Origin: Fibrobacter sp. UWH6
Lineage (GTDB): Bacteria; Fibrobacterota; Fibrobacteria; Fibrobacterales; Fibrobacteraceae
NCBI RefSeq assembly: GCF_900142465.1
Contig: NZ_FRAX01000019.1
Coordinates: forward strand, 1 to 60,770
Length of the DNA stretch: 60,770 nt
Direction of reading: 5' to 3'
The notes under the pieces were generated by a model. It searched no databases. It saw only the letters and a list, made by a program, of their open reading frames with translations, and had not been told where the DNA came from. This document shows, one piece after another, positions 690 to 57,047 of this stretch. Each line of letters starts with the position of its first letter. Within the stretch, counting starts at the first letter, position 1. The translations under genes and the position numbers were made by a program.

Positions 690-1631
690 ATGGAAGAGAA
701 AAATATGCAGGCGGCTGGTGAAATCATTTTTTACCAACCCGAGGGCGAATCTAAACTTCAAGTATATCTTGAAGATGAGACAGTTTGGCTGACAATAGAT
801 CAGATGAGCGACCTGTTTTTAAAGTCACGATCAACGATTAATGAACATATTCTAAACGCATTCAAGGAAAAAGAATTAGACAAAAGCGAAGTTATGAGAA
901 AAATCGGAAATTCCGATTTTTCTACCAAGCCCACGAACATTTACAATTTAGATGTAATTATTTCCGTTGGCTATAGGGTTAAATCCGTTCGTGGCACACA
1001 GTTCCGTCGCTGGGCCAATCAGGTTCTAAAAGATCATCTTCTGCGCGGAGCAAGCGTAAACCAACGCTTTATGCTGACTGAAGAGCGAGTTGACAGGCAA
1101 CTGATTAATCACGAAAAACGTTTGGACGAGCTCGACTCAAAAGGCATGGAAACGAGCACTCGCCTAGCCACTCTCGAAAAGCAGGTGGACTTTTTCGTCA
1201 AGGCAAACCTGCCTCCCAGTGAGGGCATTCTGAACGCAAAATCCTGGTGGAGTGGGTACGAATTCGCTTGCCAGCTGGTGCGTTCCGCAAAGGAAGAAAT
1301 CATCGTCATCGATCCTTTTGCAGACGATGTCGCACTCTCACTTGTTGCCAAGAAGTCTGCGGTTGTAAATGCGTTCGTCTATTCCGGGCATGTAAACCGA
1401 CATCTGCGAGAGGAAGAAGAACGACTGAATCGTCAATTCCCAACCGTAAAACTCGAAGGCATGCAGAATGTTCATGACAGGTTCATCATCGTGGACGAGA
1501 CCGTTTATCACATCGGTTCATCCCTCAACGAACTCGGGAAAAAACTGACCGCATTCTCCATATTGAATTTCATTTCAAAGCAGCAATTGTTAGAAATGGT
1601 GTCGCAGGCGTCAGGAAAAAAGAACGGCTAA
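690..1631 (+). CDS. RhuM-family protein with PLD-like C-terminal domain
   Basis: The 313-residue protein has a RhuM-type N-terminus (about residues 8-125): an ETVWLTIDQMSDLF helix-turn-helix-like start and the family motif YNLDVIISVGYRVKSVRGTQFRRWA. A coiled-coil-like stretch (about 135-170) follows. The C-terminal part (about 185-300) carries IIVIDPFADD and HDRFIIVDE, which resemble phospholipase-D-type phosphodiesterase motifs with HxR in place of HxK. RhuM proteins are common cargo of pathogenicity and defence islands; their biochemical role is not established. ATG 690 is 5 nt after AAAGGAG. A shorter RhuM relic lies at 55680-55877. The PLD-like reading is inferred from motif shape, and nuclease activity is only a hypothesis. 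Confidence 0.75.
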   Translation: MEEKNMQAAGEIIFYQPEGESKLQVYLEDETVWLTIDQMSDLFLKSRSTINEHILNAFKEKELDKSEVMRKIGNSDFSTKPTNIYNLDVIISVGYRVKSVRGTQFRRWANQVLKDHLLRGASVNQRFMLTEERVDRQLINHEKRLDELDSKGMETSTRLATLEKQVDFFVKANLPPSEGILNAKSWWSGYEFACQLVRSAKEEIIVIDPFADDVALSLVAKKSAVVNAFVYSGHVNRHLREEEERLNRQFPTVKLEGMQNVHDRFIIVDETVYHIGSSLNELGKKLTAFSILNFISKQQLLEMVSQASGKKNG

Positions 1632-1815
1632 AGTTTTAAAGTGGTCGAATTTGACAACTTTATGAAGATTTATCGCAATGTTACTGATTTCCGTTATATT
1701 AACAAATTCTTGACGCGTTCTAAAATCACGTTAAACCCATTGAATTCGAGGGGTTTAAAATGTGGTTTGAGTGATTGTAACACAAAGGAGAGTCGCTTGC
1801 TTGAAAATATAGATA

Positions 1816-1844
1816 TTGACTTTTGCTACAATAAATTTTATATT
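1816..1844 (+). promoter_or_regulatory. Strong sigma-70 promoter for abiE
   Basis: TTGACT (1816-1821), a 17-bp spacer and TATATT (1839-1844) match the sigma-70 consensus closely. The expected start of transcription, about 1851, coincides with an in-frame GTG, so the transcript may be leaderless. The promoter lies inside the longest open frame, which argues that the true start codon is downstream of it. Confidence 0.65.
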
Positions 1845-1850
1845 ATTGTA

Positions 1851-2465
1851 GTGAAAGTAAAGAAGAGTCATAACGCAATTGTAGAAACTATCGAAAGTAT
1901 CGCCAAGGCTAACGGTGGCGTGGTTTCTACCGCCAACGCTGAAAAACAGGGCGTTTCCAGGGCCGTTCTTTCCCAGATGGCTGCAAATGGTGACTTGGAC
2001 CGCGTCGCAAAGGGATTCTATGTATTGCCCACCGAGCTTCCTGATGAGCTGTTCATTCTCAGTTTGTGTTCTCCAAACATTGTGTTTTCACATGAAACGG
2101 CTCTGTTTTTAAATGGCATTACTGAACGAACGCCGGTGATTCATACCTTCACTCTTCCAAGGGACAAAAGGCTTTCTTCCGCGTTTTCAAAGGAATGCAC
2201 AATTCATTATGCTGAAAGGGAGTCGTGGAACATCGGCAAAACCGAAATCAAAACGCCTATGGGAAATTTGGTTCCCTGCTTTGATGCGGAAAGAACTATT
2301 TGTGATCTTATCAAGTACAAAAAAAAGTTCGATCCAGAAACCTACATTGCATCGTTGAAAATGTACGCAAAGATGCAGACAAAAAATCTTCAACATCTTT
2401 CTGAATATGCCCAAAAACTTGGGATTGTGGAGAAGGTTCGCGATGCGCTGGAGGTATTGCTGTGA
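1851..2465 (+). CDS. abiEi: AbiEi-type antitoxin / transcriptional repressor
   Basis: This is the antitoxin of an AbiE-type (type IV) toxin-antitoxin pair. The N-terminal winged-helix region reads IVETIESIAKANGGVVST, then SRAVLSQMAANGDLDRVAKG and FYVL, typical of AbiEi; the rest forms the family's C-terminal antitoxin domain. In characterised systems AbiEi represses its own promoter and counteracts AbiEii without a stable protein complex. The start is ambiguous. GTG 1851 fits the promoter at 1816-1844 and the usual family N-terminus. TTG 1797 has a perfect AAAGGAG 6 nt upstream and would add 18 residues. The stop overlaps the toxin start (GTGA), implying translational coupling. Confidence 0.85.
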   Translation: MKVKKSHNAIVETIESIAKANGGVVSTANAEKQGVSRAVLSQMAANGDLDRVAKGFYVLPTELPDELFILSLCSPNIVFSHETALFLNGITERTPVIHTFTLPRDKRLSSAFSKECTIHYAERESWNIGKTEIKTPMGNLVPCFDAERTICDLIKYKKKFDPETYIASLKMYAKMQTKNLQHLSEYAQKLGIVEKVRDALEVLL

Positions 2466-3310
2466 AACAAAGAGGCGCAAAGGCGACTAGCTTAAAAGCT
2501 AAAATCAAGAACATTGCAAAAGAGAAAAGAGTTGCTCCACAATTGATTTTGCAAAATTTCATGATGGAGCGCTTTCTCAATCGAATTGCGACTTCTAGTT
2601 ACAAGGACTGCTTCATTATCAAGGGCGGTTCCTTAATTTCGGTTATCCTTGGAATAGAAAATAGAACCACGATGGATATTGATATGACATCCCGAGGTTT
2701 TTCCTTTAACGAAAAAAACGTACAAGGTATTATCCAAGATATTAGTCTGATTGATTTGCAAGATGATTTTTTTTTCGAAATAAAGAAATGCGAACCAATT
2801 CGAGAAGACGATGCTTATGGTGGATTCCGAGTTTTTATTGACGGCTTCTACGAATCAAAAATTTTAGTAGTCCCTTTTGCGATTGACATTACCACCGGAG
2901 ATGTCGTGACTCCCGAACCCCAAAAACGATCCTGGGTTAATCTATGTAATGCACAGGAAAGTTTTGAATTGTGGACTTATACGCTAGAAACAATAGTCGC
3001 AGAGAAAATTGAATCCATTTTAAGTAAAGGCGTTTTGAACACTCGTCCTCGTGATTTTTACGATGTGTATATGCTCAGTAAGCTTAAAAAGTTCAATGGG
3101 AAAAGATTCTCTTTAGCTTTAAAAAAGACTTGCGAACACAGGAAATCCTGGGACCAAGTTAAAAATGCGGTAGAACATTTTGTGGACATTGAAAATAGCG
3201 GTAGTCTCAAACAATTTTGGGAACGCTATGCTAAAAGCAATTCGTATGCTGCAAATATCGGTTATAACGATATTGTTGCAGTAATAAAGAATCTACTGAC
3301 TGCGATATAG
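2462..3310 (+). CDS. abiEii: AbiEii-type nucleotidyltransferase toxin
   Basis: This is a 282-residue toxin of the AbiEii / DUF1814 nucleotidyltransferase family. The signature GGS (in IIKGGSLISVI, about residues 55-65) and the DID metal-binding acidic pair (in TTMDIDMTSRG, about 72-82) are both present, followed by the later conserved region ETIVAEKIESIL and RPRDFYDVYML. Family members transfer nucleotides to tRNA or other targets and cause growth arrest or phage abortive infection. The GTG start overlaps the antitoxin stop by 4 nt. The gene appears intact, and a terminator follows 44 nt after the stop. Confidence 0.87.
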   Translation: MKQRGAKATSLKAKIKNIAKEKRVAPQLILQNFMMERFLNRIATSSYKDCFIIKGGSLISVILGIENRTTMDIDMTSRGFSFNEKNVQGIIQDISLIDLQDDFFFEIKKCEPIREDDAYGGFRVFIDGFYESKILVVPFAIDITTGDVVTPEPQKRSWVNLCNAQESFELWTYTLETIVAEKIESILSKGVLNTRPRDFYDVYMLSKLKKFNGKRFSLALKKTCEHRKSWDQVKNAVEHFVDIENSGSLKQFWERYAKSNSYAANIGYNDIVAVIKNLLTAI

Positions 3311-3703: not shown

Positions 3704-4702
3704 ATGTCTAAGATTCATAAGTCTATTGCAGAACTCGTTGGCCACACTCCTCTTGTTGAACTTTCCAATTACGAAGAAAAGTATGGTCTTAAGGCTCACA
3801 TCATTGGTAAGCTGGAATACTTGAACCCCACCGGCTCCGTGAAGGACCGCTTGGCTCTGGCCTTGATCCAGGATGGTGAACGTCGCGGCCTGATTAAGAA
3901 GGGCGACACTCTTATTGACGTGACTAGCGGTAACACGGGCATTGGCCTTGCCGGTATCGGTCACGCTCTTGGTTACGAATTCGAACCTTATCTGGAACCG
4001 GGCACGACTATCGAACGCGTCCAGATTTTTGAAGGCTACGGCTTGAACGTAAAGTCTTTCTACGATATCGAAGAAGTCAAGGATTTCGAAAAGACGGGCC
4101 TGGTGCTTGATGATTTGATTGATGGTATCAAGCGCATCGCCAAGGAAAAGGGGTTCTATTATACTGGTCAGACTGTAAACGAAGCCAACCAGGAATTCCA
4201 TTTCAAGACTACCGGCCCAGAAATTTGGGAAGACACGGATGGCAAGGTGGATTACTTTGTTGCAATGGGCGGTACTGCCGGCACCATCGTGGGCACTGGC
4301 CGCTATCTTCGCGAAAAGAATCCTGGCGTAAAAATTGTGGGTGTGCAGGCTGCAAAGAGCTCCCGCCCGGATAGCCCCGACTTTACTGGCCATATCGTAG
4401 ATGGAACCTTGCCTTTGCATGGTGTGGCTGAACCTCTTGTGCCTACCCTCATCAAGACCAATCGCGATAACGGTTTCCAGTTCGACGAAGTCATCGACAT
4501 CAAGGCGGAAGACGCTTACGCAACTGCACAGGAAACTGCAAAGACCGATGGCCTCTTCCTGGGAACTTCTGCTGCCGCCGCCCTTACCGCTGCAATCCAG
4601 ATTGCAAAGCGCCCTGAAGCTGCCGGCAAGAACATCGTGGTGATTTACCCCGATAACGGTTACAAGTACCTTTCTACGGAACTGTACAAGAAGCAGAAAT
4701 AG
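3704..4702 (+). CDS. PLP-dependent cysteine synthase family enzyme
   Basis: This is a fold-type II PLP enzyme of the cysteine synthase / cystathionine beta-synthase family, 332 residues. The Schiff-base lysine is K47 in NPTGSVKDR, the substrate loop TSGNTG is at 74-79, TTGPEIW follows further on, and GGTAGT forms the phosphate-binding loop. The loop after the substrate site (EPYLEPGTTIERV) departs from the LPETMS type of classical CysK, so the natural substrate may differ from O-acetylserine plus sulfide. It is preceded by AAGGAT and a long structured leader. A LanC-like gene follows after 88 nt in the same direction, suggesting a joint thiol or thioether role. Confidence 0.8.
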   Translation: MSKIHKSIAELVGHTPLVELSNYEEKYGLKAHIIGKLEYLNPTGSVKDRLALALIQDGERRGLIKKGDTLIDVTSGNTGIGLAGIGHALGYEFEPYLEPGTTIERVQIFEGYGLNVKSFYDIEEVKDFEKTGLVLDDLIDGIKRIAKEKGFYYTGQTVNEANQEFHFKTTGPEIWEDTDGKVDYFVAMGGTAGTIVGTGRYLREKNPGVKIVGVQAAKSSRPDSPDFTGHIVDGTLPLHGVAEPLVPTLIKTNRDNGFQFDEVIDIKAEDAYATAQETAKTDGLFLGTSAAAALTAAIQIAKRPEAAGKNIVVIYPDNGYKYLSTELYKKQK

Positions 4703-4755
4703 TGGTTAGTGATTAGTGGCTAGTGGTTGGTTTGATTTTTGTGTACTAACCACTA
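4701..4755. repeat. Heptamer tandem repeat with inverted partner
   Basis: Just after the cysK-like stop, four 7-nt units of the AGTGGTT type run through 4701-4728. TAGTGGTT (4721-4728) then pairs with AACCACTA (4748-4755), forming a hairpin between the cysK-like and LanC-like genes. A second array of the same heptamer, in the opposite orientation, lies at 40863-40892. Confidence 0.7.
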
Positions 4756-4790
4756 AATACTGCTTACTTATTAATGGGAGAATTAATCAA

Positions 4791-6197
4791 ATGAAATTGA
4801 ATTTTGTACAGAATATTGCGTTGAAGACTGCGAAGTCTACTGAAGATTATTTGGAATCCGTTCTCCAGATTGTGAAGTATCTGAAGAATAACGAAGTGGT
4901 AACGCCGCAGGGAAAGTACTGGAAGGTAAGTCCGGAACCGGGTAACGAATACGCTGGTGATCTGATGATTACCCCCAAGGGCCTTTACGCAGGCTCGGCT
5001 GGTATCGGCCAGTTTTTCTTGCAGCTTTTCGAAGTGACGAAAGATGAACAGTATTTGCAGGAAGCGAAAGATGCCGCGGAATACATTCTGAATACCTACG
5101 AAGGTGTAAAGTTCTTCAAGGATGTTTTGGAAGGTGCCGAAGGCGGCATCTGGCCTGTAAAAGGCTGGGGTACCAGCGTCTATGCGTCTCCGGCGGGTCA
5201 GGCCATCTTTTTGGATCAGCTTTACGCACATGTGAAGGATGAACGCTACCGCAAGTTCCTGATTCAGTCTGCCGATGATGCGATCGCTGCAGGTCATGAT
5301 GACGGAAAGATTCTTCACTGGTCCACGGAAGCGGACTTGATGGCTGACGGTTCCTACGCTTTCTTCTTCCTGTATGTTTACCGCAAGACCGGTGACGAAA
5401 AATATCTGGAAGCTGCAAAGCGCGTAGTCGCCTTTACGGACACTCGCATCACTTACGCCAAGGAAGGCGGCATTTACTACAAGAATGTTGACCTCACGTT
5501 GGTTGGCTGGAAGTCCAAGGAATCTGCATTCCCCAACTTCAGTCACGGTGCTGCAGGAACGGCTTTCTTGAATGTTCTTCTTTACGAAGAAACCAAGGAT
5601 CCTGCTTATCTTGAAAAGGCGAACGAAGTTGTGAAATTCCTGGCTGCTATTGCAGAAGGTGACGAAAATGGAGCGTTAATCCCGTACCTCTACAATCCTG
5701 AATTAGGACGTTTCCATGACTTCTATTACCTTTCCACTTGCCATGGCCCTGTGGGAACCTCGATCCTGTTCCGCAAACTTTACGACGTGACCGGCGATAA
5801 GGAAAATCTCCAGTGGGTTGACCTTCTGACTAAGGGGATTCTGAAGGCTGGTGCTCCGCTGAAACATACTCCGGGGTACTGGAACAGTTACTGCCTCTGC
5901 TGCGGTGCCCCGGGCGTTTTGGCTCACTTCGTAAAGACTGCTGAAGTTCTTGGAAAGGATTCCTACATCGAACAGGCGAAGGTTACTGCCGATAAGCTGC
6001 TGGGCGATTCCTATAACGATGACAAGGGCCGTCGCTGGTACGCCGCATGGACCCGTAAGATTCCAGGCTTTGTGGAAACTTACACCGGCCTTTACGATGG
6101 CGCAGCTGGCGTGGGATCTGCACTCCTGTACCTTTACGCCCACGAAAAGAATATCAAGATTAAGACGGAAACGTTGGAATACCTGTTCCTGAAATAA
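4791..6197 (+). CDS. LanC-like protein with Cys-Cys zinc motif
   Basis: This is a stand-alone LanC-like protein of 468 residues. Several GxxG toroid repeats are visible: GLYAGSAGIG, FSHGAAGTA (H252), CHGPVG (C317, H318), CCGAPG (C370, C371) and LYDGAAGVG. In LanC cyclases zinc is held by a Cys in the WCYG-type motif and by the Cys-His of a CHG motif about 46 residues later. Here the second motif is CCG, 53 residues after C317, which predicts three-Cys zinc ligation as in the ProcM-type branch. LanC enzymes add thiols to dehydroamino acids. No lantibiotic precursor or dehydratase is nearby, so the substrate is unknown. ATG 4791 has GGGAGA upstream; an earlier in-frame ATG at 4716 overlaps the repeat and has no site. 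Confidence 0.82.
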   Translation: MKLNFVQNIALKTAKSTEDYLESVLQIVKYLKNNEVVTPQGKYWKVSPEPGNEYAGDLMITPKGLYAGSAGIGQFFLQLFEVTKDEQYLQEAKDAAEYILNTYEGVKFFKDVLEGAEGGIWPVKGWGTSVYASPAGQAIFLDQLYAHVKDERYRKFLIQSADDAIAAGHDDGKILHWSTEADLMADGSYAFFFLYVYRKTGDEKYLEAAKRVVAFTDTRITYAKEGGIYYKNVDLTLVGWKSKESAFPNFSHGAAGTAFLNVLLYEETKDPAYLEKANEVVKFLAAIAEGDENGALIPYLYNPELGRFHDFYYLSTCHGPVGTSILFRKLYDVTGDKENLQWVDLLTKGILKAGAPLKHTPGYWNSYCLCCGAPGVLAHFVKTAEVLGKDSYIEQAKVTADKLLGDSYNDDKGRRWYAAWTRKIPGFVETYTGLYDGAAGVGSALLYLYAHEKNIKIKTETLEYLFLK

Positions 6198-6229
6198 TCT
6201 CTGAAAATTAAAAATCCGTACAACAAAGG

Positions 6230-6271
6230 GAACTCCCGGGTAATGAAATCCGCCTGGGAGTTCTTTTTTTT
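6230..6271. terminator. Intrinsic terminator between convergent genes
   Basis: GAACTCCC (6230-6237) pairs with GGGAGTTC (6256-6263) and extends further inward, followed by eight T on the plus strand. It ends the LanC-like gene and may also stop pdxR transcripts coming from the right. Confidence 0.88.
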
Positions 6272-6283
6272 ACGTTCTTGTTC

Positions 6284-7729
6284 CTACATCCCCATGGCAA
6301 CTTCGTACAAAATATTCAATGCTTTTGCGATTTTGTTTTCGGGGAGGTCGGAGTAGTTGATGATGAACTGGTGCTCGCTGGGGGTGGCCTCTGTGTAGTA
6401 ATCGGAGAGGGCGCCGATGCGAACGCCTTTTTCGTTTGCCTGCTTGCAGAATTCTTCGTCGGAAAGGGCGGTGTCGATTTTCAAGATGAAATGGAGGCCG
6501 GCGTCTTCTTCAGCGATGGTGGAGATGGCGGTCAGTTTGCTTTTGCGGATGGCTTGGAGCAATGTGTCGCGGCGGCCGCGGTAGGCGTTGCGCATGCGGT
6601 TGATGTGCTTTTCAAAGGAGCCGTCGCTGATGTACTTTGCAAGCACCAGCTGTTCCAAGGTAGAAACGGTGCAGGTGTAGAAGGAAAATTCCTCCTTGTA
6701 CTTTTGGGCAAGGCTCTTGGGCAGCACCATGTAGCTGATTCGCGCAGAAGATGTAAGAGTCTTGGAGAATGTGTTGATGTAGATGACCTTATCGGATACG
6801 TCAATGTTTTGCAGCGTGGAGATAGGGCGACCGGTCATGCGGAATTCGCTATCGTAGTCGTCTTCTACGATGTAGCGGTTGCTGGATTTGGCGGCCCAGC
6901 TCAGCAGTTCGTAACGGCGGCTTACAGGCATCACAATACCTGTGGGATAATGATGACTGGGGGAGATGTGAATGACGTCGGTGCAGGTTTCTTCCAACTG
7001 GTCGATGATGACTCCGGAGTCGTCCAGCGGAATGAAATTGCAAGTGACATTCATCTTGCGGTAGATTTTTGAAATCTTGCTGTAGCCGGGATCTTCTACG
7101 CCGTACTTCTTGTTAAATCCCAGAATCTGGACGATGAGACCGTACAGATAGTCTGTTCCTGCGCCAACGATAATCTGCTCCGGATCCACGTTCATATTGC
7201 GGAAACCATTGAGCATGTCGGCGATAGCCTTACGCAATGGGTATACGCCTCCGTAGGGAGCGCGTTCCAGAAGTTCCATCTGATTTTCGCAAAGGACCTG
7301 ACGCGTGATTTTTGCCCAGGTGCTGAAGGGGAACATTTCGGGATTTCCCAAATTGTTGGAGAAGTCCACGAAGTGTTTCTTGGATTGTTTTGCACTGCGG
7401 GATTTTTGAACCAGGGAATCAAATTTCTGAGTGTTGCGAGCTTCGCGGGATTCCTTGAAGTCGTGCTTGATCTCAGTCTGGGCGATTTTCAGTTTGGATA
7501 CGAAATAGCCTTTGCGAGGTTCCGTGTAGATGTAACCTTCGGCCAGCAATTGGTTGTAGGCGGTTTCTACGGTAATGAGGCTGATGCCCATTTGCTTTGC
7601 CAGAGAACGTTTAGACGGTAATTTCTCTTCGGCTTCCAACTTGCCGTTCAGAACATCATTCTTGATACTCTTATAAAGGAAGTGGTAGAGGGTATCGCTG
7701 CCCACGTTTTCGATGTTGTAGCTAAGCAT
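6284..7729 (-). CDS. pdxR: MocR-type PLP-responsive regulator (PdxR)
   Basis: This 481-residue protein has a GntR-type winged helix (about residues 12-75, with LPSKRSLAKQMGISLITVE) fused to a fold-type I aminotransferase-like domain. The PLP lysine is in NTFSKTLTSSARISY near residue 320, and VEDDYDSEF and the GAGTDYLYGL region are also present. MocR proteins of the PdxR group sense PLP and control pdxST. Its divergent placement next to pdxS, with three phased CTGGTC repeats between them, supports that assignment. The start codon at 7729 lies only 6 nt from the operator repeats, so autoregulation is likely. Confidence 0.88.
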   Translation of the reverse strand: MLSYNIENVGSDTLYHFLYKSIKNDVLNGKLEAEEKLPSKRSLAKQMGISLITVETAYNQLLAEGYIYTEPRKGYFVSKLKIAQTEIKHDFKESREARNTQKFDSLVQKSRSAKQSKKHFVDFSNNLGNPEMFPFSTWAKITRQVLCENQMELLERAPYGGVYPLRKAIADMLNGFRNMNVDPEQIIVGAGTDYLYGLIVQILGFNKKYGVEDPGYSKISKIYRKMNVTCNFIPLDDSGVIIDQLEETCTDVIHISPSHHYPTGIVMPVSRRYELLSWAAKSSNRYIVEDDYDSEFRMTGRPISTLQNIDVSDKVIYINTFSKTLTSSARISYMVLPKSLAQKYKEEFSFYTCTVSTLEQLVLAKYISDGSFEKHINRMRNAYRGRRDTLLQAIRKSKLTAISTIAEEDAGLHFILKIDTALSDEEFCKQANEKGVRIGALSDYYTEATPSEHQFIINYSDLPENKIAKALNILYEVAMGM

Positions 7730-7735
7730 TTTTAT

Positions 7736-7763
7736 CTGGTCCTAAACTGGTCTTATTCTGGTC
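7736..7763. promoter_or_regulatory. Probable PdxR operator: three CTGGTC repeats
   Basis: CTGGTC occurs at 7736, 7747 and 7758, exactly 11 bp apart, so all copies face the same side of the helix. Phased direct repeats are typical of MocR operators. They sit in the pdxR 5' region, about 85 nt from the pdxS start. Confidence 0.75.
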
Positions 7764-7846
7764 TTGTTAAAATAATAGAAAATTGAATATTTAAAGAGGT
7801 CAGTTTTTAGGGTATTTTTGTGCTGTTTTTAAAAGTGAGGTAAAAA

Positions 7847-8737
7847 ATGTCTGAACAGAATTACATTGCAGAACGTTACGAATTGAACAAGAATCTTGCT
7901 CAGATGCTGAAGGGTGGTGTGATTATGGACGTAACCACTCCGGAACAGGCAAAGATTGCAGAAGCTGCAGGTGCTTGCGCCGTGATGGCCCTGGAACGTA
8001 TTCCGGCTGATATCCGTGCTGCCGGTGGCGTGAGCCGTATGAGTGACCCGAAGATGATCAAGGGTATCCAGGAAGCTGTTTCTATTCCGGTGATGGCTAA
8101 GTGCCGTATCGGTCATTTTGCCGAAGCTCAGATTCTTGAGGCTATTGAAATTGACTACATCGACGAAAGCGAAGTTCTTTCTCCGGCCGATGATATTTAC
8201 CACATCAACAAGCGCGATTTCAAGGTTCCCTTCGTTTGCGGAGCCAAGGACTTGGGTGAAGCTCTCCGCCGTATCGAAGAAGGTGCTTCCATGATTCGTA
8301 CCAAGGGTGAACCGGGTACGGGTGACGTTGTCCAGGCTGTTCGCCACATGCGCTTGATGCAGCAGGAAATCGCTCGCCTCACTTCTATGCGTGAAGACGA
8401 ACTGTACAACCGCGCCAAGGAACTTCAGGTATCTTACGCTCTGGTAAAGTACGTTCACGATAACGGTAAACTGCCTGTTGTGAACTTCGCCGCTGGTGGC
8501 GTGGCAACTCCCGCAGACGCTGCGCTCATGATGCAGCTGGGTGCCGAAGGCGTGTTCGTAGGTTCTGGTATTTTCAAGTCTGGCAATCCGGTGAAGCGCG
8601 CTCAGGCCATCGTGAAGGCCGTGGCCAACTATAAGGATGCAAAGCTCATTGCTGAACTTTCCGAAGACCTGGGCGAAGCCATGGTGGGCATCAACGAACA
8701 GGAAATCGCACTCCTCATGGCTGAAAGAGGTAAATAA
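7847..8737 (+). CDS. pdxS: Pyridoxal 5'-phosphate synthase lyase subunit PdxS
   Basis: PdxS (296 residues) condenses ribose 5-phosphate, glyceraldehyde 3-phosphate and ammonia into PLP. Family hallmarks are [44 protein letters not shown] (catalytic lysine near residue 85), [12 protein letters not shown] (second lysine) and FVGSGIFKS near the C-terminus. The length is normal. The stop overlaps the pdxT start by 1 nt (TAATG), so synthase and glutaminase are translationally coupled. Regulation by the divergent PdxR is expected. Confidence 0.97.
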
Positions 8738-9390
8738 TGAGCGATACCAAAACTGTACAGAACCCGGCAGCGGCTCGTCCCCTGCGTATCGGTGTGCTGG
8801 CGGTACAAGGTGCGTTTATTGAACACGAACAGATTCTCACAAAGCTTGGCGTAGAGACCTTTGAAATCCGGCAGAAGTCAGACCTGGAAGCTCCCGCAGG
8901 ATCAAACCGACCTTCGAATCGTCCTTTCGACGGTCTGATTCTCCCCGGTGGCGAAAGCACCGTGCAGGGCAAGCTGTTGCGGGATTTGGATATGTTCGAA
9001 CCGCTGTTGAGATTGATTCAGGATGGGCTTCCTGTTTTTGGAACCTGCGCCGGTCTCATTCTCTTGGCGGAACGTTTGAGCAATGACGGCAATGTGTATT
9101 TCGGTACCTTGCCTGTGACTGTTCGGCGTAATGCCTACGGCCGTCAGCTGGGAAGTTTCTTCGCGGAGCGAGCCTTCCGTGGAATTACGGATGAAGCTAC
9201 GGTTCCCATGACTTTCATTCGTGCGCCCTTGATCGAAAAAGTTGGGGATGGTGTGGAAATCCTTGCCGAGGTAAAAGGCGAAATCGTTGCTGCCCGCTAC
9301 AAGAACCAGCTTGGAATTTCTTTCCATCCGGAGCTGAACGAGGACACTCGTATTCACCAGTACTTCGTGGATATGTGCCTTGGGGAATAA
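8737..9390 (+). CDS. pdxT: PLP synthase glutaminase subunit PdxT
   Basis: PdxT (217 residues) is the class I glutaminase that feeds ammonia to PdxS. It shows the GGEST oxyanion region, the nucleophile in FGTCAGLILL, and the His-Glu of SFHPEL near the C-terminus. It is somewhat longer than the roughly 190 residues usual for the family, because of a short N-terminal extension and an insert around residues 50-65 (GSNRPSNRPF). It forms an operon with pdxS. Confidence 0.95.
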   Translation: MSDTKTVQNPAAARPLRIGVLAVQGAFIEHEQILTKLGVETFEIRQKSDLEAPAGSNRPSNRPFDGLILPGGESTVQGKLLRDLDMFEPLLRLIQDGLPVFGTCAGLILLAERLSNDGNVYFGTLPVTVRRNAYGRQLGSFFAERAFRGITDEATVPMTFIRAPLIEKVGDGVEILAEVKGEIVAARYKNQLGISFHPELNEDTRIHQYFVDMCLGE

Positions 9391-9427
9391 CCTATATTTC
9401 GTCGTGGAATTGTAAGGGAATTTCGCT

Positions 9428-10798
9428 GTGAAGCTTCTTCTAATATATTTCTTCGTCCTTGGATTTATCTGCATTCGCGATTTATTCAAGGTGAAGAATT
9501 TTGATGATTATGTGGTGGCGGGTCGACGTCAGACCGCCCCTTTTGTGTTTACGAGCTTGATGGCCACGGTCCTTGGGGCTAGCGCCACAATCGGTATTGC
9601 TGCCCGTGCGGAATCCATCGGCTTTGCGGCGTCCTGGTGGCTTGGTGTAGGTGCCGTCGGCTTCTGGTTTCAGGCTGCTTTTTTAAGCAAGCCAATTCAC
9701 GATCTTGATGTGCGTACCCTTCCGGAACTTGCGGAAAAAACAGTAGATAGGACTGGCCGAAAATTGGTAGGCCTGATTATTGCTGTTTCCTGGGTTGGAA
9801 TTATTGCGGCTCAGTTTGCTGCGGTAGCTGGATTTATTGGACTGGTGTTAGGTCATGATGCAGGTGCTTTGTCGGTGGTTGTAACGGCGGCCATCGTTAT
9901 TGTGTACACCTTGCTGGGCGGGCAACTTTCTGTTGTGCGTACTGATGCCTTGCAGTTTGGGATTTTGACGCTGGGTTTTGCTGCTTCCGCGATTTATTTG
10001 CTTGGTGGATTTGCGGATGTTTCTGCTGCGACCGCTTTAAATGCGACCGCTTCTGGAATTTCAAATTTCGATTTTTCGTTATTGAATGAAAAGTTTGGTG
10101 CTGCTGATCTTGCCATGATGCTTTTTACTGTGGGCGGGGCCTACTTCTTGGGACCTGACGTAATTTCAAGAAACTTGGTGGCGAAAGATGCGGGGGCGGC
10201 CCGAAAGGCTGTGGTGGCGGGAAGTTTCGCCATTCTGATTTTTAGCGTGATTATTGTATTGCTGGGAATGTGGGCGGCACAGTATGCTCCTGATGTGGCG
10301 GGCTCAAAGACCAATGCCTTGTTCCGTTTGGCTTCTGGCGTTTTGCCTTTGCCCTTGGCTGCGCTTTTGTCGGTGGGGCTTCTTTCGGCGTTGTTGTCTT
10401 CTGCAGATACTTGCCTTATAAATTCTGCGGCTATTTTCGGAAGCGACATTTTGAATACCCGCCGCATCGCCGTGGTGAGAATTCTTGTGGTGGTCATTGG
10501 TTTGGTTGCCATGGTTTTGGCTTTAGGTGGAAAGGATATTATCGGCCTTTTGACCATGGCTTATTCTGTCTACACGCCGGGAATTGTGGCTCCCTTGGCG
10601 GTGGCTGTCATATCCCATAAGAAGTTTGAAATCCGTAAGCCTCTGTGGTACACTGGAGTTTGCCTTGGCGGTTTGTTTGGGCTGATCCCTGCCATACTTT
10701 CTTCGGCTGTGAATTTTGTGACGCCTGCATATTTGCCTCATATTGGAATTTTTGTGTCGCTTTTGTTCGCCTTGGCTGGTTTGAAACGTCGAAAATAA
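9428..10798 (+). CDS. Sodium:solute symporter family transporter
   Basis: This 456-residue inner-membrane protein of the SSS family has about 12-13 predicted hydrophobic segments, the early motif FDDYVVAGRR and the conserved TVLGASATIGIAARA region. GPDVISRNLVAKDA and a Ser/Asp-rich LLSSADTCLINSAA segment match the sodium-binding core of LeuT-fold symporters. Substrate specificity cannot be read from sequence; the neighbouring PLP and cysteine-type genes hint at an amino acid or vitamer. The GTG start follows a weak AAGGGAA. A TATATT element at 9393-9398 could be its own -10. Confidence 0.85.
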   Translation: MKLLLIYFFVLGFICIRDLFKVKNFDDYVVAGRRQTAPFVFTSLMATVLGASATIGIAARAESIGFAASWWLGVGAVGFWFQAAFLSKPIHDLDVRTLPELAEKTVDRTGRKLVGLIIAVSWVGIIAAQFAAVAGFIGLVLGHDAGALSVVVTAAIVIVYTLLGGQLSVVRTDALQFGILTLGFAASAIYLLGGFADVSAATALNATASGISNFDFSLLNEKFGAADLAMMLFTVGGAYFLGPDVISRNLVAKDAGAARKAVVAGSFAILIFSVIIVLLGMWAAQYAPDVAGSKTNALFRLASGVLPLPLAALLSVGLLSALLSSADTCLINSAAIFGSDILNTRRIAVVRILVVVIGLVAMVLALGGKDIIGLLTMAYSVYTPGIVAPLAVAVISHKKFEIRKPLWYTGVCLGGLFGLIPAILSSAVNFVTPAYLPHIGIFVSLLFALAGLKRRK

Positions 10799-10891
10799 GT
10801 GTGTTTTTAAAATATTCCTATTGAAACTATAGGGAAATTAAATCTATTTAACTATATTTATTGTAGTTTGAATTTGTTATCTGGAGAAATC

Positions 10892-11836
10892 ATGACCCTT
10901 CAACAACTTCGCTACGCCATTGGGATCGCAAAAGTTGGCTCCTTCAACAAGGCCGCTGAAGCCCTGTTTATTTCCCAGCCTTCTTTGACTGCGGCTATCC
11001 ACGACCTGGAAGATGAAATTGGCATCATGATTTTTAATCGCTCCAGTCGCGGTGTGACCCTCACTCCCGAGGGTGAAGAATTCATTGCCCACGCCAACGA
11101 GCTTTACCACCATTACGAAACCATCCAGGAACGTTACAGCAAGGAAGAACAGAAGAAGAAAAAGTTTGCTGTTTCTACCCAGCATTATTCCTTTGCCGTG
11201 AAGTCTTTTGTGGAAATGGTGAAAAAGTTCAACATTGATGATTACGAATTTGCCCTTCGCGAAACCAAGACCAAGGATGTCATCGATGACGTTACCGGCC
11301 TGCGCAGCGAAATCGGTATTTTGTACCTTAGCGATTTTAATCGCAAGTACATCAACTATCTGTTGAAGGAACACGACCTGGAATTCCATAAGCTTATTGA
11401 TTGCCATGCCTTTGCCTACATGTGGAAAAATCATCCGCTGGCAAATAAGAAGTCGGTGAACCTGGATGATCTTTCCCTATACCCCTGCCTTTCTTTTGAG
11501 CAGAGCGAAAGCGGTAACTATTATTTCGCTGAAGAAATTTTAAGTACAAATGAATATCATAAGACCATCAAGGCCAATGACCGTGCCACCATGCTGAACT
11601 TGATGGTGGGCCTGAATGGTTACACTCTCTGCTCCGGCATTATCAGCGAAGAAATCAACGGATCCGATTATGTAGCTGTTCCCTTTAAGGATGCCAAGGG
11701 CGAAGATGACCGTACCATGGAAATCGGCTACATTACCAAGAAGAACTTTATGCTCAGCACCATTTGCCGAATCTATATTCGCGAATTGGAAGAGTATCTG
11801 CAGACATATACTTCTGGGAAGGCTGTTCAGGAATAA
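10892..11836 (+). CDS. LysR-type transcriptional regulator
   Basis: This LysR-family regulator is 314 residues from ATG 10892, which has TGGAGA just upstream; the longer TTG frame from 10868 is less likely. The N-terminal winged helix is classical: MTLQQLRYAIGIAKVGSFNKAAEALFISQPSLTAAIHDLE, here read as two adjoining pieces. A substrate-binding-protein-like effector domain follows from about residue 90. A TATATT box at 10852-10857 is the probable -10. Its target is unknown; the symporter upstream and tcdA downstream are read in the same direction. Confidence 0.88.
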   Translation: MTLQQLRYAIGIAKVGSFNKAAEALFISQPSLTAAIHDLEDEIGIMIFNRSSRGVTLTPEGEEFIAHANELYHHYETIQERYSKEEQKKKKFAVSTQHYSFAVKSFVEMVKKFNIDDYEFALRETKTKDVIDDVTGLRSEIGILYLSDFNRKYINYLLKEHDLEFHKLIDCHAFAYMWKNHPLANKKSVNLDDLSLYPCLSFEQSESGNYYFAEEILSTNEYHKTIKANDRATMLNLMVGLNGYTLCSGIISEEINGSDYVAVPFKDAKGEDDRTMEIGYITKKNFMLSTICRIYIRELEEYLQTYTSGKAVQE

Positions 11837-31274: not shown

Positions 31275-31883
31275 CTAAATACCTTCAAAAAGTACGGCTT
31301 TCTTGATCCATGCGATGACGTCATCTACACCATCCATGCTCATGAGATTTGTGAATAAGTACTTGCGACCTTCTCGCATCCGTTCGGAATCTCGGGCCAT
31401 GACTTCCAGGCTTGCGCCTACGAGAGGTGCCAAGTCGGTCTTATTGATGACCAGCAGGTCGGAACGCATAACGCCGGGGCCACCCTTACGGGGAATCTTT
31501 TCGCCTTGGGCGACGTCGATAACATAAATGCTTGCGTCGGCCAGGTCGGGGCTGAAGGTGGCCGACAGGTTGTCTCCGCCACTTTCAATAAAAATAATCT
31601 GGACGTCTGGAAACTTGCGGACCATTTCGTCTACGGCTTCCAGGTTCATGGAACAGTCTTCACGAATGGCGGTATGGGGGCATCCTCCAGTTTCTACGCC
31701 GACAATTCTTTCGGGAGGCAGGGCTGAATTCTTGATCAAAAATTCGGCATCTTCCTTGGTGTAAATATCGTTGGTTACTACGCAGATGCTGTATTCCTTA
31801 CTCATCTTGCGGGTAAGTCTTTCAATCAATGCGGTTTTTCCGGATCCAACGGGACCGCCTACGCCAATTTTTACATAACTCAT
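31275..31883 (-). CDS. ureG: Urease accessory GTPase UreG
   Basis: This is a SIMIBI-class GTPase of 202 residues that powers nickel transfer to urease. The P-loop [17 protein letters not shown] (residues about 7-23), the nickel-binding [13 protein letters not shown] and the guanine-specificity NKTDLAP are all present. The length is standard. It is followed, unusually, by two unknown membrane-protein genes before ureD. Confidence 0.97.
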
Positions 31884-31893
31884 ATTTTGCTCA

Positions 31894-32586
31894 TTAACTC
31901 ATATAAAGTCGGGAATAAAGTTCTTCGTGTTTCATTCCTGCAATATCCATGCCAGTTCCGCCTACGCCCAAGTCATCCATGTCCAGCGTGCAGGCTCGCT
32001 GAACGGCTTGGATGATTTTCTTTTGGGAATTGCTTAAAATCCTTTGGCCGACCATCTGACTTAGAGGGATCATCTTGACGCCGTTTGTGACAATGGCGTT
32101 TAGCAAGCTGTAGGTGTAAATGCTTGCGGCTTCTTCCTTGTTTAAACCGATGTCGTTTGCGAAGAGACCGATTGCAATGGCGTGGTTTCCGATGCAAGAG
32201 CCATTTTTTAAAACTTCATCTCGATAAAAGTCCAGAGATGGAAAGCAGTTGTTTTTTGCACCTTCAAATTCGCCATAGATTTTTAAAAATCTGCTGCAGA
32301 GTTTTTTGGAACCTGTGCGAACTTCTTCTGGAGCCTTTAGGGCCATGGAAAGGCTGTCTAGATTTTTAATGAAACTTATGTCATCGGCGTGGTCGAAGCT
32401 GAGAATCATGACCCCTAAATCATTGTAGGGGAGTACATTCAAAAAGCTAGAAACGTATTCTTGAAGGGTTTCTCCGTTTGTGATGGTCTTGTTAGCAATC
32501 AAAGTTTCAAGACCATTGGAGAGTGTGAACGCTCCAATGGGAAAGAGGCTATCGCAAACTTGAATCATCCGGAGAGTGGCTAGCAT
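31894..32586 (-). CDS. ureF: Urease accessory protein UreF
   Basis: This 230-residue all-helical protein has the UreF opening [19 protein letters not shown] and [11 protein letters not shown]. UreF binds UreD-urease and regulates UreG GTPase activity. It lies 8 nt after ureE. The sequence is divergent in the middle, but its order in the operon leaves little doubt. Confidence 0.92.
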
Positions 32587-32594
32587 ATTCAGTT

Positions 32595-33104
32595 CTAATG
32601 ATGGTGCTCGTGATGATGGCCATGCTCATGATGGTCATGGTCGTGGCTATGGGAGTGACCGTTACTTGCACCGTGTGCCTTGCAGACGATGTAGTCAGAA
32701 AAAACATCTTCTACAATCTGAGGGAGAAATCCCAAACGGACTAGGTATTCGAAGGTGGGCTCGTCATAAGGAATGGTGACATCCTTTTCTGTAATTTGCA
32801 GGGAAAGATGCCTGTTACCCAATTCAAATCCAAGGCGTCCCATTTCTTCCATAGTCTTGACGGGAATGCGAACCAGTTTTGTCTTGTTGATCTTTACAGC
32901 GTAAATTTTATCGGGACTGACGGCGAGAACATCGCCATCAGAAAGGGATTCCTCAATCTGAATTCCCAATTCGGTTCCGTCATCGGCAACTTTAAAAATA
33001 CGATGCTTGTCCAGTTCAAACCATTCGAATGGAACGAACACAACTGTTTTTGAAGGAACTTCGTTTCCGTGATGGATGTTTCCGAGAATTTTATCGGCAA
33101 TCAT
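32595..33104 (-). CDS. ureE: Urease nickel metallochaperone UreE
   Basis: This is a 169-residue UreE with the usual N-terminal peptide-binding domain and the C-terminal metal domain (IPYDEPTFEYLVRLGF, VSDYIVCKAHG variants). It ends in a strongly His-rich tail with 13 histidines in the last 21 residues. Such a tail stores nickel, as in the Klebsiella-type UreE. A good AAGGAGTC precedes the ATG. Confidence 0.95.
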   Translation of the reverse strand: MIADKILGNIHHGNEVPSKTVVFVPFEWFELDKHRIFKVADDGTELGIQIEESLSDGDVLAVSPDKIYAVKINKTKLVRIPVKTMEEMGRLGFELGNRHLSLQITEKDVTIPYDEPTFEYLVRLGFLPQIVEDVFSDYIVCKAHGASNGHSHSHDHDHHEHGHHHEHHH

Positions 33105-33128
33105 TTTTTGACTCCTTGCAGATTGCTT

Positions 33129-34841
33129 TTAGAAAAGGAAGTACCTTCTTGCAAGAGAAAGCTCTGTGGCGGCTTCGCAGGTGATTCTTTCGCCATCCAC
33201 CTTTACAGTGTAGGTTTCAGGATCTACTTCCAGCTTTGCGATGCGGTCGTTGTGAACCATGTCCTTCTTGCCGATGTTTCGACAGTTGCTTACGGGGAGG
33301 ACCATTCTTTCGAGGCCCAGTTCTTCCTTGATGCCATTTGCAAAAGCGTATTCCGAAACGAAGGTGATGCAGGTTTTTGCTAAAGCCTTGCCGTGGGCAC
33401 CGAACATATCGGTATACACAACTGGCTCTGGGGTGGGAATGCTGGCATTGGCATCGCCCATTTTGGATGCGCAAATAAAACCATTCTTCAGGATCATTTC
33501 GGGCTTGGCTCCGAACATGTCGGGGCGCCAAAGGACAAGGTCTGCGATTTTGCCAACCTCTACGGAACCAACGTACTTTGAAATGCCGTGGGTAATGGCC
33601 GGGTTGATGGTATACTTGGCAATGTAACGCTTGATGCGATTGTTGTCGTTGCGTTCGCAGTCGGTGTCGAGAGTACCGCGTTGTTTTTTCATTTTGTCTG
33701 CGGTTTGCCAAGTACGGGTGATCACTTCACCTACGCGGCCCATGGCCTGAGAATCAGAACTCATCATGGAGAAAATTCCCATGTCGTGAAGAATGTCTTC
33801 GGCGGCGATGGTTTCCGGACGAATTCTTGAATCCGCAAAAGCCACATCTTCTTTATTGTTCTTGTCCAGATGGTGGCAAACCATCAACATGTCCAGATGC
33901 TCGTCAATGGTATTTCTCGTGAAGGGCATTGTCGGATTTGTTGAAGATGGCAAGACGTTTTCGAAGGCGGCTGCGCGAATGATGTCGGGAGCGTGTCCAC
34001 CGCCAGCACCTTCCGTATGGTAGGTGTGGATGGTGCGTCCCTTAAAGGCTGAGATGGTATCTTCTACGAAGCCGCCTTCGTTTAATGTATCCGTGTGGAT
34101 GGAAACCTGGACGTCGAATTCATCCGCGACGCCTAGGCAAGTGTCAATAGCCTTGGGAGTGGAACCCCAGTCTTCGTGAAGCTTCAGGCCTGCAGCTCCT
34201 GCACGCACCTGTTCTCTCAAGGTTTCTGCACAGGATCCATTTCCCTTGCCGAGGAAGGCTAAGTTGACGGGTAAATCTTCTGCTGCTTCCAGCATCTTGT
34301 GAATGTTGAATGCGCCGGGCGTACAAGTGGTAGCGTTGGTTCCGTCAGCAGGGCCTGTGCCGCCACCAATCATGGTGGTGACGCCGCTATAAAGAGCTGT
34401 ACGAACTTGTGTGGGAGAGATAAAGTGAATGTGGGTGTCGATACCGCCGGCAGTCAAGATCAGGCCTTCGCCAGCAATGGCTTCGGTGGAACTGCCGATG
34501 ATCATGCCTGGGGTAACGCCATCCATCATGTGGGGGTTGCCGGCTTTTCCGATGCCAGCAATTTTTCCGTCCTTAATGCCTATGTCGGCCTTGAAAATAC
34601 CAGTGGCGTCAATGACAAGCGCGCTTGTAATGACAGTGTCTAGGCATTCGTCATCCTTAAAGGGAACTGCCTGGCCCATGCCATCTCGCAATGATTTTCC
34701 GCCACCGAATTTGGCTTCGTCACCGTAAACGCAATAATCCTTTTCTACTTCTACAATAAGGGAGGTATCTGCAAGACGGATGCGGTCGCCTACGGTGGGA
34801 CCGTACATTTGAGCGTAATCTTTTCTGGAAATCTTGTACAT
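33129..34841 (-). CDS. ureC: Urease alpha subunit UreC
   Basis: This is the catalytic subunit, 570 residues. The nickel site is complete: [10 protein letters not shown] (two His), GLKLHEDWG (carbamylated Lys and His), [24 protein letters not shown] and SSDSQAMGR (Asp). The flap MVCHHLD supplies the general-acid His. It hydrolyses urea to ammonia and carbamate. The start is ATG 34841 ([16 protein letters not shown]), one nt after the ureAB stop; an in-frame extension further upstream overlaps ureAB and is rejected. Confidence 0.98.
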
Positions 34842-34842
34842 G

Positions 34843-35523
34843 TTAAGCTCCCGTAAAACCAGAGGTTGATGCTCTGCCAAATGCAGCCGTTTTTACGAAT
34901 TCATCATCCATAGGGCCTTCTACTAGACCGTTCAATCCATGACCTTCGCGGCTACCACCGATTTCAACCAGGTTTACGGTCTTTGTTTCGCCGGGTTCAA
35001 AACGTACTGCGGTTCCCGCGGGTACATCAAGACGCATGCCATAGGCTGCCATGCGATTGAAATCCAGTTTTTTGTTGACTTCAAAGAAGTGAAAATGGGA
35101 ACCTACTTGAACTGGGCGGTCTGCCGTATTGGTAACATCTAGAGTAAGTGTTCTCTTGCCCGCATTCAGTTCGATGAAACCTTCCTCCACGAGAACTTCG
35201 CCAGGAATCAATTTCCCGGTAGCAGGAATTGGATCGTGTACGGTAACTAGCTTTGTTCCGTCAGGGAATGTGGCTTCCAGCTGAACTTCATGAATCATTT
35301 CTGCGACGCCGTCCATCACCTGTTCGGCTGTCAGCATCTTTCGACCCTCGGACATCAATTCTGCAACGGTCTTGCCATCTCGAGCCAATTCCAATAACTT
35401 GCTGGAAATGTAGGCGATGGCTTCCGGATAATTCAGTTTCAGTCCGCGTTGCAGTCTTTCGCTTGCAACAATGCCTGCATAGTGCAGCATCAACTTTTCA
35501 GTTTCTCTAGGAGTTAAATGCAT
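34843..35523 (-). CDS. ureAB: Fused urease gamma/beta subunit
   Basis: This 226-residue protein joins UreA and UreB. Residues 1-100 are the gamma subunit ([49 protein letters not shown]). From about 105 the beta subunit follows ([44 protein letters not shown]). A fused gamma-beta subunit is known from Helicobacter and some actinobacteria. The urtE stop lies 2 nt upstream. Confidence 0.96.
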
Positions 35524-35525
35524 AA

Positions 35526-36239
35526 TTAATCCGTCATCAATTTTTGGACTTCAGCCTTGTCACAAAGGGATGTTTCCCTGTGGAAAATGATGTTTCCCTT
35601 TTCCATGATGTTGATGTAGTGGCTGTTTTCCATAACGAAATCCAGATACTGTTCCACCAGCAATACGGTAATGCCCTTCCATTCGTTAATCTTACGGATG
35701 GCGCGACCAATGTCGTTAATGATGGATGGCTGGATACCTTCGGTAGGTTCGTCAAGAATCAAAATCTTTGGGTCCTGTACCAGGGCGCGTGCGATGGCAA
35801 GTTGCTGCTGCTGACCGCCGGAAAGGTCGCCACCGCGGCGTTTGGCGAATTTGGGCAGGATAGGAAACAGGTCGTAGAGATATTCGGGAATCTTGTTCTT
35901 ACCCACCTTTTCTCCACGGCCAAGAATGGGCTGTATGCCCAATTCCAGATTTTCCTGGACGGTCATCTGCGGGAAAATGTCTCGACCTTGCGGGACGTAG
36001 CCAATACCGCAGCGAACGCGCTCGTAGGCGGGAAGTTTTGCGATTTCCTTTCCGTCAAAAACGAGAGATGTTTCGGGGCCTGTCTTTACTAGTCCCATAA
36101 TGCTCTTTAGTGTGGTGCTTTTTCCAACGCCGTTTCGACCGATGAGGCTTACTATTTTTCCCTTGGGGATGTCCAGGCTCAAACCTTCAATGACGCGGCT
36201 TTCGCCATAATAGGAATCCATGTTTTTCAAATAAAGCAT
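35526..36239 (-). CDS. urtE: Urea ABC transporter ATP-binding protein UrtE
   Basis: This ABC ATPase has 237 residues, with Walker [12 protein letters not shown], signature [15 protein letters not shown], Walker [16 protein letters not shown] and the switch His in [10 protein letters not shown] replaced by Gln-Tyr context typical of LivF/Urt[27 protein letters not shown], in part, is also a UrtE hallmark. It works with UrtD on the cytoplasmic face of the high-affinity urea importer. Confidence 0.95.
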
Positions 36240-36241
36240 AA

Positions 36242-37072
36242 TTATTCTCCACCACGACCCAGGTAAACTTTCTGCACGGTAGGATCGGCAAGAACTTCCG
36301 TTACGCTGCCCTCCATCAGAATTTTTCCTTCATGAAGGACTGTCACCTTGTCGGCAACCTGCTTCACGAAATCCATGTCGTGTTCAATAACGATGACGGT
36401 ACAATCCTTCTTGATTTCCTTCAGGATTTCTCCGGTTTTAAATGTTTCTGGCTTGCCCATGCCGGCGGCGGGTTCATCTAGCATAATGACTTCCGGCTTT
36501 TGCACCAGCTGCATTGCGATTTCGAGCCATTGCTTTTCGCCGTGAGCCAAGGCCCCTGCGCGCCATTGACGTTTGTCGGCCAGGCCCACTTTTTGCAGGG
36601 TGGCTTCGATGTTTTCCAGCTCTTCCTTTTTTGGTTTACGCAGAATGGTGTCCATAATTCTCTTCCCTTTTTTCAGGGAGAGAATCATGTTTTCTTCCAC
36701 AGTCAGGTTTACAAACACCGAGGGAACCTGGAATTTTCTGCCGATTCCAAGCCAGACGATCTTGTATTCCTTCATTCCCGTCAAGGTTACAGGATCCTTG
36801 TACATAGGATGGTAAACCACATTGCCTTGGGTGGGTTTTGTTTTGGCGCAAATAATGTCAAGTAATGTTGTTTTCCCTGCTCCATTGGGGCCAATGAAGA
36901 AATGAATTGTATTTCTCTTGACTTTTGTGTTTACATCGGTTAGAGCATAAAACCCATCAAAGCAAACAGAAACATGGTTGATATCCAATACAGATTCTGA
37001 AAGCTGTGTGATTTTGATAGGTGCGGGGTTCTTGGCAAGAAGTTCTTCTTTTGATACGATTTCGGTTTGCAT
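36242..37072 (-). CDS. urtD: Urea ABC transporter ATP-binding protein UrtD
   Basis: This 276-residue LivG-type ATPase has Walker A IGPNGAGKTTLLDII, the family signature region ALAHGEKQWLEIAMQL (which replaces the canonical LSGGQ in UrtD), Walker B VIMLDEPAAGMG and VIVIEHDMDFV. The N-terminal about 25 residues are an extension. It is packed between urtE (2-nt gap) and urtC (9-nt gap). Confidence 0.95.
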   Translation of the reverse strand: MQTEIVSKEELLAKNPAPIKITQLSESVLDINHVSVCFDGFYALTDVNTKVKRNTIHFFIGPNGAGKTTLLDIICAKTKPTQGNVVYHPMYKDPVTLTGMKEYKIVWLGIGRKFQVPSVFVNLTVEENMILSLKKGKRIMDTILRKPKKEELENIEATLQKVGLADKRQWRAGALAHGEKQWLEIAMQLVQKPEVIMLDEPAAGMGKPETFKTGEILKEIKKDCTVIVIEHDMDFVKQVADKVTVLHEGKILMEGSVTEVLADPTVQKVYLGRGGE

Positions 37073-37081
37073 AAAAACTCC

Positions 37082-38155: not shown

Positions 38156-38186
38156 ATTTGTACCAGTAATCCTTATTCGTTAAACC

Positions 38187-39089: not shown

Positions 39090-39129
39090 GGTGTCCTCGG
39101 TCCGTTTGCGTTTGTTTTTTGATTGTTAA

Positions 39130-39170
39130 AAGAAGTGTTGAAATAAAAGGTGGCGGGCCCAGAGACCCGC
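39130..39170 (-). terminator. Attenuating hairpin between urtA and urtB
   Basis: On the minus strand GCGGGTC and GGCCCGC (39153-39170) form a 7-bp stem with one G-U pair and a TCTG loop, followed by ACCTTTTATTT. A partial terminator after the binding-protein gene would explain how urtA can be made in excess over the permease and urease genes. Confidence 0.6.
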
Positions 39171-39226
39171 TTCCCTTTATAGAATGCAAGCGAAAAGCCT
39201 GCGGTCTTTATGAGGATGGGTATATT

Positions 39227-48719: not shown

Positions 48720-48795
48720 GTTATATGGCTTTGCGGATTCTGCTTGCCGTATTCAAAGACGCCTCTGGTAACAAGAAATGAACGAAGGAGGCTGT

Positions 48796-49824: not shown

Positions 49825-49897
49825 ACAGAGAAATAATTTGCAAAAAAATGGCCTAGTACGCTTAAAAATCTCGCTTCGTTTTTTCAAAAAATACCTA

Positions 49898-50146: not shown

Positions 50147-50203
50147 GTTAGCTGAATTCTTTGACTTCTTCAAATCTCCGTAAACGGGGTGATGCGGAGT
50201 CAA

Positions 50204-52163: not shown

Positions 52164-52164
52164 T

Positions 52165-55595: not shown

Positions 55596-55679
55596 CGTGG
55601 TGGCTAAGCTTCCTTTTATTGACAAGGAACTGGTGGAAGGAATTTTTTGCAAAGAAAAAAATTGCGCGTTCCGCCTTGA

Positions 55680-55877: not shown

Positions 55878-55898
55878 ACTTATTTTCGCTGTACTCTT

Positions 55899-57025: not shown

Positions 57026-57047
57026 TAAAATGGAAACGAGGGAGGCC

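Follow-up and report, generated by a model that had tools for sequence, protein, structure and literature searches.

Stand-alone LanC-like proteins are, to our knowledge, widespread in bacteria, and their substrate is mostly not known. In Fibrobacter sp. UWH6, such a protein is encoded directly downstream of a cysteine synthase relative, which raises the question of what chemistry, if any, the two proteins share and on which substrates. We addressed this question for the whole stretch of 60,770 nucleotides (hereafter, the window) and for the related loci in other genomes, denoted by G numbers, G000 being the strain's own genome. Literature searches turned up no account of a CysK–LanC pair.

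Gene Content of the Window

The first gene of the pair, CysK1, encodes a PLP fold-II enzyme of the CysK family (Pfam PALP, E 1.2e-59). The second, LanC1, listed as an open reading frame at 4716–6197, matches LANC_like (PF05147) with an E-value of 3e-27 and 95.6 bits, above the gathering threshold of 23.2. The pair read by the first-pass annotation is thus real, with one correction: the true start of LanC1 is most likely the ATG at 4791, because the orthologs open with MKL at this point and the ATG has a GGGAG ribosome-binding site ahead of it. No Rfam riboswitch was found upstream of the pair. The coordinates are collected in Table 1.

Table 1. Features of the CysK1–LanC1 locus and nitrogenase-like CysK2 loci of other genomes
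Feature	Coordinates	Strand	Remark
CysK1 (332 aa)	3704..4702	+	non-canonical cysteine-synthase-family PLP enzyme (predicted)
CysK1–LanC1 spacer (88 bases)	4703..4790	+	no terminator-like site
LanC1 (468 aa, ATG 4791)	4791..6197	+	stand-alone LanC-like protein
PdxS/PdxT	7847–9390		behind divergent PdxR
SSF-family sodium/solute symporter	9428..10798	+	context only; 78–81% identity to the symporter of the CysK2/PatB/ABC cluster in other Fibrobacter
LysR regulator	10868..11836	+	context; 87–90% identity to the LysR after PatB in CysK2/ABC clusters
Nitrogenase-like genes, two CysK2, NMT1/SsuA-type ABC, PatB, LysR	G104:C1 (L069 3369-19899)		
Same set	G130:C18 (L071)		
Same set	G060:C5 (L072)		
Same set	G064:C7 (L070)		

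On the 5' side of CysK1 lies a RhuM/AbiE toxin-antitoxin block (690-3310), with a RhuM-like protein and an AbiEi/AbiEii-type pair; the AbiEii protein is 98.6% identical to one in G070, where it is likewise next to CysK1–LanC1. On the 3' side, LanC1 is followed by a divergent PdxR, PdxS, PdxT, the sodium symporter, LysR and a ThiF-family protein. The PLP synthesis genes noted in the first-pass annotation do follow the pair, but a link to PLP supply finds no support, because pdxR/pdxST adjoin the pair in this genome only.

Several features elsewhere in the window are recorded here for completeness. A urease region (31275-40462) includes a UreG-like gene (31275-31883), the alpha subunit (33129-34880) and a branched-chain-type ABC permease with a binding protein, probably for urea uptake; a match to 5_ureB_sRNA (34397-34691) is antisense to the alpha subunit gene, and the conserved coding sequence alone may explain it. 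A restriction/defence-like island (48778-59857) combines a type I specificity subunit with a DUF1016/YhcG nuclease and a ResIII helicase of 1122 aa. An Abi_2 (AbiF-like) protein is encoded at 57068-58063, and since an Rfam abiF RNA match (57090-57126) falls within the first bases of this frame, the gene may in fact begin at a later position.

CysK1, a Non-canonical Relative of Cysteine Synthase

CysK1 matches the CysK, CysM and CBS models strongly, yet stays under every curated cut-off: 238 bits against 351 for cysK (TIGR01139), 176 against 350 for SbnA, 199 against 510 for CBS and 187 against 600 for cysteate synthase. It shares the fold-II PLP core and about 40% identity with the O-acetylserine sulfhydrylases CysK/CysM, with the Lys and the Asn loop kept; in the alignment, the PLP lysine of SVKDR, the substrate loop TSGNTG, the Gln in GQTVNEAN and the Ser in GTSAAA, near the pyridine nitrogen, are all retained. 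Unlike these enzymes, CysK1 has GVAEPL in place of the GIGAGF loop, which the canonical Fibrobacter copies retain as GIGA[GN]F, GTAGT in place of GTGGT and a new SR…DG segment, the insertion SRPDSPDFTGHIVDGT, which it has in common with CysK2. In a FastTree phylogeny of 24 sequences, CysK1 is the sister of CysK2 (support 0.998) and both are separated from canonical CysK (0.995). Judging from these sequence features, CysK1 falls outside the ordinary cysteine synthases.

LanC1 and LanC2

The structural model of LanC1, built from a three-sequence alignment with modest confidence (pLDDT 61, pTM 0.73), matches LanCL, NisC and CuvL end to end (Z 22–26 over 334–352 residues), with lower scores for the GH47 and GH76 toroids (Z 15–18). 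The predicted fold is the alpha/alpha toroid of the LanC-like family.

In LanCL1, zinc is bound via Cys276, Cys322 and His323, His219 is the acid and His277 stabilizes the enolate (PMC9934072). The corresponding roles in LanC1 were assigned from the way the seven inner-helix G..G motifs follow one another and from the end-to-end structural ranges. This motif mapping gives Cys317, Cys370 and Cys371 as putative zinc ligands, His252 as the acid and His318 as the enolate-stabilizing residue, and by these putative site residues LanC1 looks catalytically complete. HMMER alone placed the CCGAPG of LanC1 on the Cys276 motif of LanCL1, a shifted register that the internal repeats permit; the end-to-end ranges of the model favour the Cys317/Cys370/Cys371 register, short of residue-level proof. 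Cys317, Cys370, Cys371 and His252 are invariant across all Fibrobacter LanC copies, including a second protein, LanC2, which is about 42% identical to LanC1 and retains its site residues except for the replacement of His318 by Gly.

LanC1 resembles the LanC/LanCL proteins (NisC, LanCL1/2, the cyclase domain of CuvL) in its predicted toroid, Cys…Cys-X zinc motif and His in HG..G, and LanCL1 specifically in the His that adjoins the first zinc Cys. Unlike all of these, it stands alone, with no peptide precursor or dehydratase next to it, has CCG for CHG and is associated with SDRs and with PLP enzymes of C–S chemistry. The CCG motif and the putative three-Cys zinc set are shared with ProcM-type LanM enzymes, in which the three zinc-binding sites are tied to substrate promiscuity (PMC10783134, PMC12328550); LanC1 differs from the latter in having neither a dehydratase domain nor Nif11-type precursors. 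Against the lanthipeptide synthetase models it stays under the cut-offs (LanM, 102 of 304 bits; LanKC, 83 of 575; LanL, 66 of 650), i.e., only the LanC domain is present.

The surroundings of the LanC copies showed neither a lanthipeptide dehydratase nor a precursor. Genome-wide, PF04738 and PF13575 (LanB/LanM dehydratase domains) gave no match, but the control genomes gave none either, so this result falls short of establishing absence. The small open reading frames in the operon gaps are mutually dissimilar, share no Cys/Ser/Thr richness and include none that is conserved across the operons. The first-pass annotation had proposed thiol chemistry outside a lantibiotic setting, and the putative zinc and acid residues kept by motif mapping, together with this context, support that proposal.

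Conservation of the Pair and Its Operon Partners

CysK1 is present in 7 of 167 Fibrobacterota genomes (84–100% identity), and LanC1 is located directly downstream in all seven. The stop and start codons overlap (TAATG) in G060 and G104, and dN/dS for CysK1–LanC1 is 0.03–0.07 in the pairs with unsaturated synonymous change. The pairing is not due to chance, given its presence in every genome with CysK1 and the low dN/dS. The flanks vary: G000 and G070 have AbiE genes there, G060 and G104 have pheA/bioB-like genes, and G142 has CGS/PatB. The adjacency is therefore not a peculiarity of a single strain, a prospect that the first-pass annotation had left for a neighbourhood survey to settle. Two further genomes, G090 and G091, have LanC1 at a contig start, as does G093 for a fragment of the gene; in G091 (99% complete), where LanC1 is at the contig edge, CysK1 was not found, an exception to the pairing.

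Within the sample searched, no family other than Fibrobacteraceae has the pair, and a single scan of the full genome-contig collection with short peptides of one sequence gave matches in Fibrobacter only. A plasmid search yielded LanC homologs in Mesobacillus and Streptomyces, with no sulfur-enzyme neighbours, and a distant LanC is encoded at a contig edge in G172, from another phylum. The Mesobacillus foraminis plasmid protein (L092, 9959-11287) is a distant stand-alone LanC in which CCG is present and the catalytic His is replaced by Tyr (NFFYG).

Further genes recur with the pair or with LanC2. SDR1 is present in exactly six genomes of the Fibrobacterota sample, each of which also has CysK1–LanC1 (hypergeometric probability about 1e-10, ignoring phylogeny), and lies upstream of CysK1 in G060, G104, G067 and G142. 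In G142, a single strand carries CGS–PatB–SDR1–CysK1–LanC1; the operon of G067 reads SDR1–CysK1–LanC1–SDR2–LanC2. In the strain's own genome, no SDR, CGS or PatB gene adjoins the pair, which is on contig 19; these are located on contig 9 in the order CGS–PatB–LanC2–SDR2–SDR1 (5618-11430, L042), with PatB and LanC2 overlapping by TAATG. PatB is above its family cut-off (429 vs 340 bits), whereas the CGS-type protein, a PLP enzyme of Cys/Met metabolism, stays under every equivalog cut-off shown. An Asp after beta-2 marks NAD-using SDRs, and by this residue, which both carry, SDR1 and SDR2 are predicted to be of the NAD type. Together, the conserved partners (SDR1, SDR2, CGS-type, PatB and LanC2) point to a longer organosulfur pathway.

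Related Sulfur-gene Clusters

Judging from gene content, the pair sits in a sulfur-gene neighbourhood, because the window's LysR and symporter match those of the CysK2 clusters and an MnmA-like gene follows LanC1 in G093 and G091; in G093, a LysR comes next, which the window LysR also resembles. The relatives on the CysK1 side, namely CysK2 (in many Fibrobacter), CysK3 (G067) and proteins of Treponema saccharophilum and Pantoea, adjoin NMT1/SsuA-type genes for sulfonate-type ABC transporters; in the CysK2 loci, the SsuA-type ABC genes are accompanied by PatB and by the LysR that is also present in the window. The Treponema and Pantoea clusters thus combine a related non-canonical CysK with NMT1/SsuA-type uptake genes, but differ from the Fibrobacter operons in having no LanC and no SDR. 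The order in Treponema is ABC–CysK-like–CGS–PatB, with CGS and PatB 66% and 52% identical to those of Fibrobacter. This locus, on plasmid pTS2 (L101, 2721-12134), also includes genes for DUF4418, an FtsX-type permease and an Rrf2 regulator, and its make-up is similar to that of the CysK2 clusters in Fibrobacter.

Four genomes have nitrogenase-like genes near the ABC–CysK2–PatB–LysR set of their CysK2 loci (Table 1). Three of these loci (L069, L071 and L072) encode a NifH-like protein and two component-1 proteins, and L070 contains two component-1-like frames; the NifH-like protein exceeds the nifH cut-off, whereas the component-1 protein examined is far under all Nif cut-offs. Methylthio-alkane reductases are nitrogenase-like enzymes that cleave C–S bonds, and the genes of the CysK2 loci are possible candidates for this (Mar) type.

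A Possible Small-molecule Role for LanC

We propose that CysK1, LanC1, SDR1, SDR2, the CGS-type protein, the PatB-type C–S lyase and LanC2 form an accessory organosulfur pathway in which LanC catalyzes a reversible thia-Michael reaction on small-molecule substrates, a scheme to which we give an even chance. The proposal builds on gene content, conserved linkage, co-occurrence, the retained catalytic motifs and the LanC-like fold; from these we infer zinc, substrates, direction and reaction order. LanC1 and LanC2 would hold a small-molecule thiol(ate) on the three-Cys zinc site and act on a small carbonyl compound rather than a peptide. In the most likely direction, SDR1 would oxidize an alcohol to a carbonyl, activating the beta-thioether, and LanC would release the thiol by retro-Michael elimination, with no need for oxygen. 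The released thiol or sulfide would be captured by CysK1 on an O-activated serine, and CGS and PatB would hand the sulfur on to homocysteine. LanC reactions are known to run in reverse, with a requirement for the acid His (PMC9934072). By analogy with the nitrogenase-like genes of the CysK2 loci, the step that breaks the C–S bond could fall to SDR and LanC. Fibrobacter is an anaerobe, and a route that dispenses with monooxygenases would therefore make sense. Several points speak against the pathway: CGS and PatB may simply serve methionine synthesis, the pair in the window lacks adjacent SDR, CGS and PatB genes, its known range in the sample is confined to Fibrobacteraceae, G091 has LanC1 with no CysK1 found, and the confidence of the LanC1 model is modest. 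The narrower idea that LanC is an oxygen-independent C–S lyase/ligase, with an NAD-dependent SDR activating a hydroxy-thioether, the three-Cys zinc LanC releasing or adding the thiol and the non-canonical CysK trapping it, is put forward as a tentative possibility.

Forward addition accommodates the same set of parts, which counts against the proposed release direction. LanC might join an unsaturated acceptor to cysteine or homocysteine, and PatB would then cut the S-conjugate so that the acceptor keeps a new thiol; CysK1 would supply cysteine, the purpose being sulfur installation in a specialized metabolite or enone/enal detoxification. LanCL1 quenches dehydroamino acids with glutathione (PMC9934072), LanC2 is translationally coupled to PatB, and conjugate-then-lyase routes are known (PMC4493562, PMC11794154): in the lincosamide and ergothioneine pathways (LmbF, EgtE), a thioether is formed and a PLP lyase then cuts the C–S bond, although the thioether-forming enzymes there are not LanC proteins. 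However, the operons lack an acceptor-forming enzyme (dehydratase, NRPS or PKS), the uptake systems of the sister clusters suggest import rather than biosynthesis, and simple cysteine supply by CysK1 is less likely because its loop differs from that of ordinary cysteine synthases. Overall, we consider forward addition somewhat doubtful, yet the leading alternative. Modification of an unlinked ribosomal peptide, or of damaged proteins by dehydroalanine repair, with the proximity of CysK reflecting shared sulfur regulation, would fit the fold and motifs, which are those of peptide cyclases, and the action of eukaryotic LanCL proteins on proteins. It appears unlikely in view of the low LanM, LanKC and LanL scores, the lack of a conserved small frame and of dehydratase-domain matches (the controls being unmatched too) and of SDR1 and CysK1, which track LanC too tightly.

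In the version of the first-pass annotation, CysK would generate a dehydroalanine-type or aminoacrylate intermediate for LanC to attack. Coupling of the two genes and their matched chemistry speak for this version, but aminoacrylate remains bound in fold-II PLP enzymes or hydrolyzes. Such capture finds no support and is very unlikely, because the LanC2 operon on contig 9 has no CysK and the SDRs would be left with no role. The least probable reading is that a spare cysteine synthase and an unrelated LanC-like protein are ordinary neighbours carried on one accessory island: the patchy distribution and variable flanks agree with it, whereas the stop/start overlap, the conserved operon partners, purifying selection and co-occurrence do not.

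Implications

Because the operon supplies a concrete chemical context (SDR, CysK-like, CGS, PatB and LanC2), the question of the LanC substrate becomes testable. The conserved association suggests that the LanC family also forms or breaks C–S bonds in ordinary small-molecule sulfur metabolism; if this is true, the family would reach outside peptide and protein chemistry. Should LanC cleave or form small-molecule thioethers, an anaerobic organosulfur route would be added in the herbivore gut.
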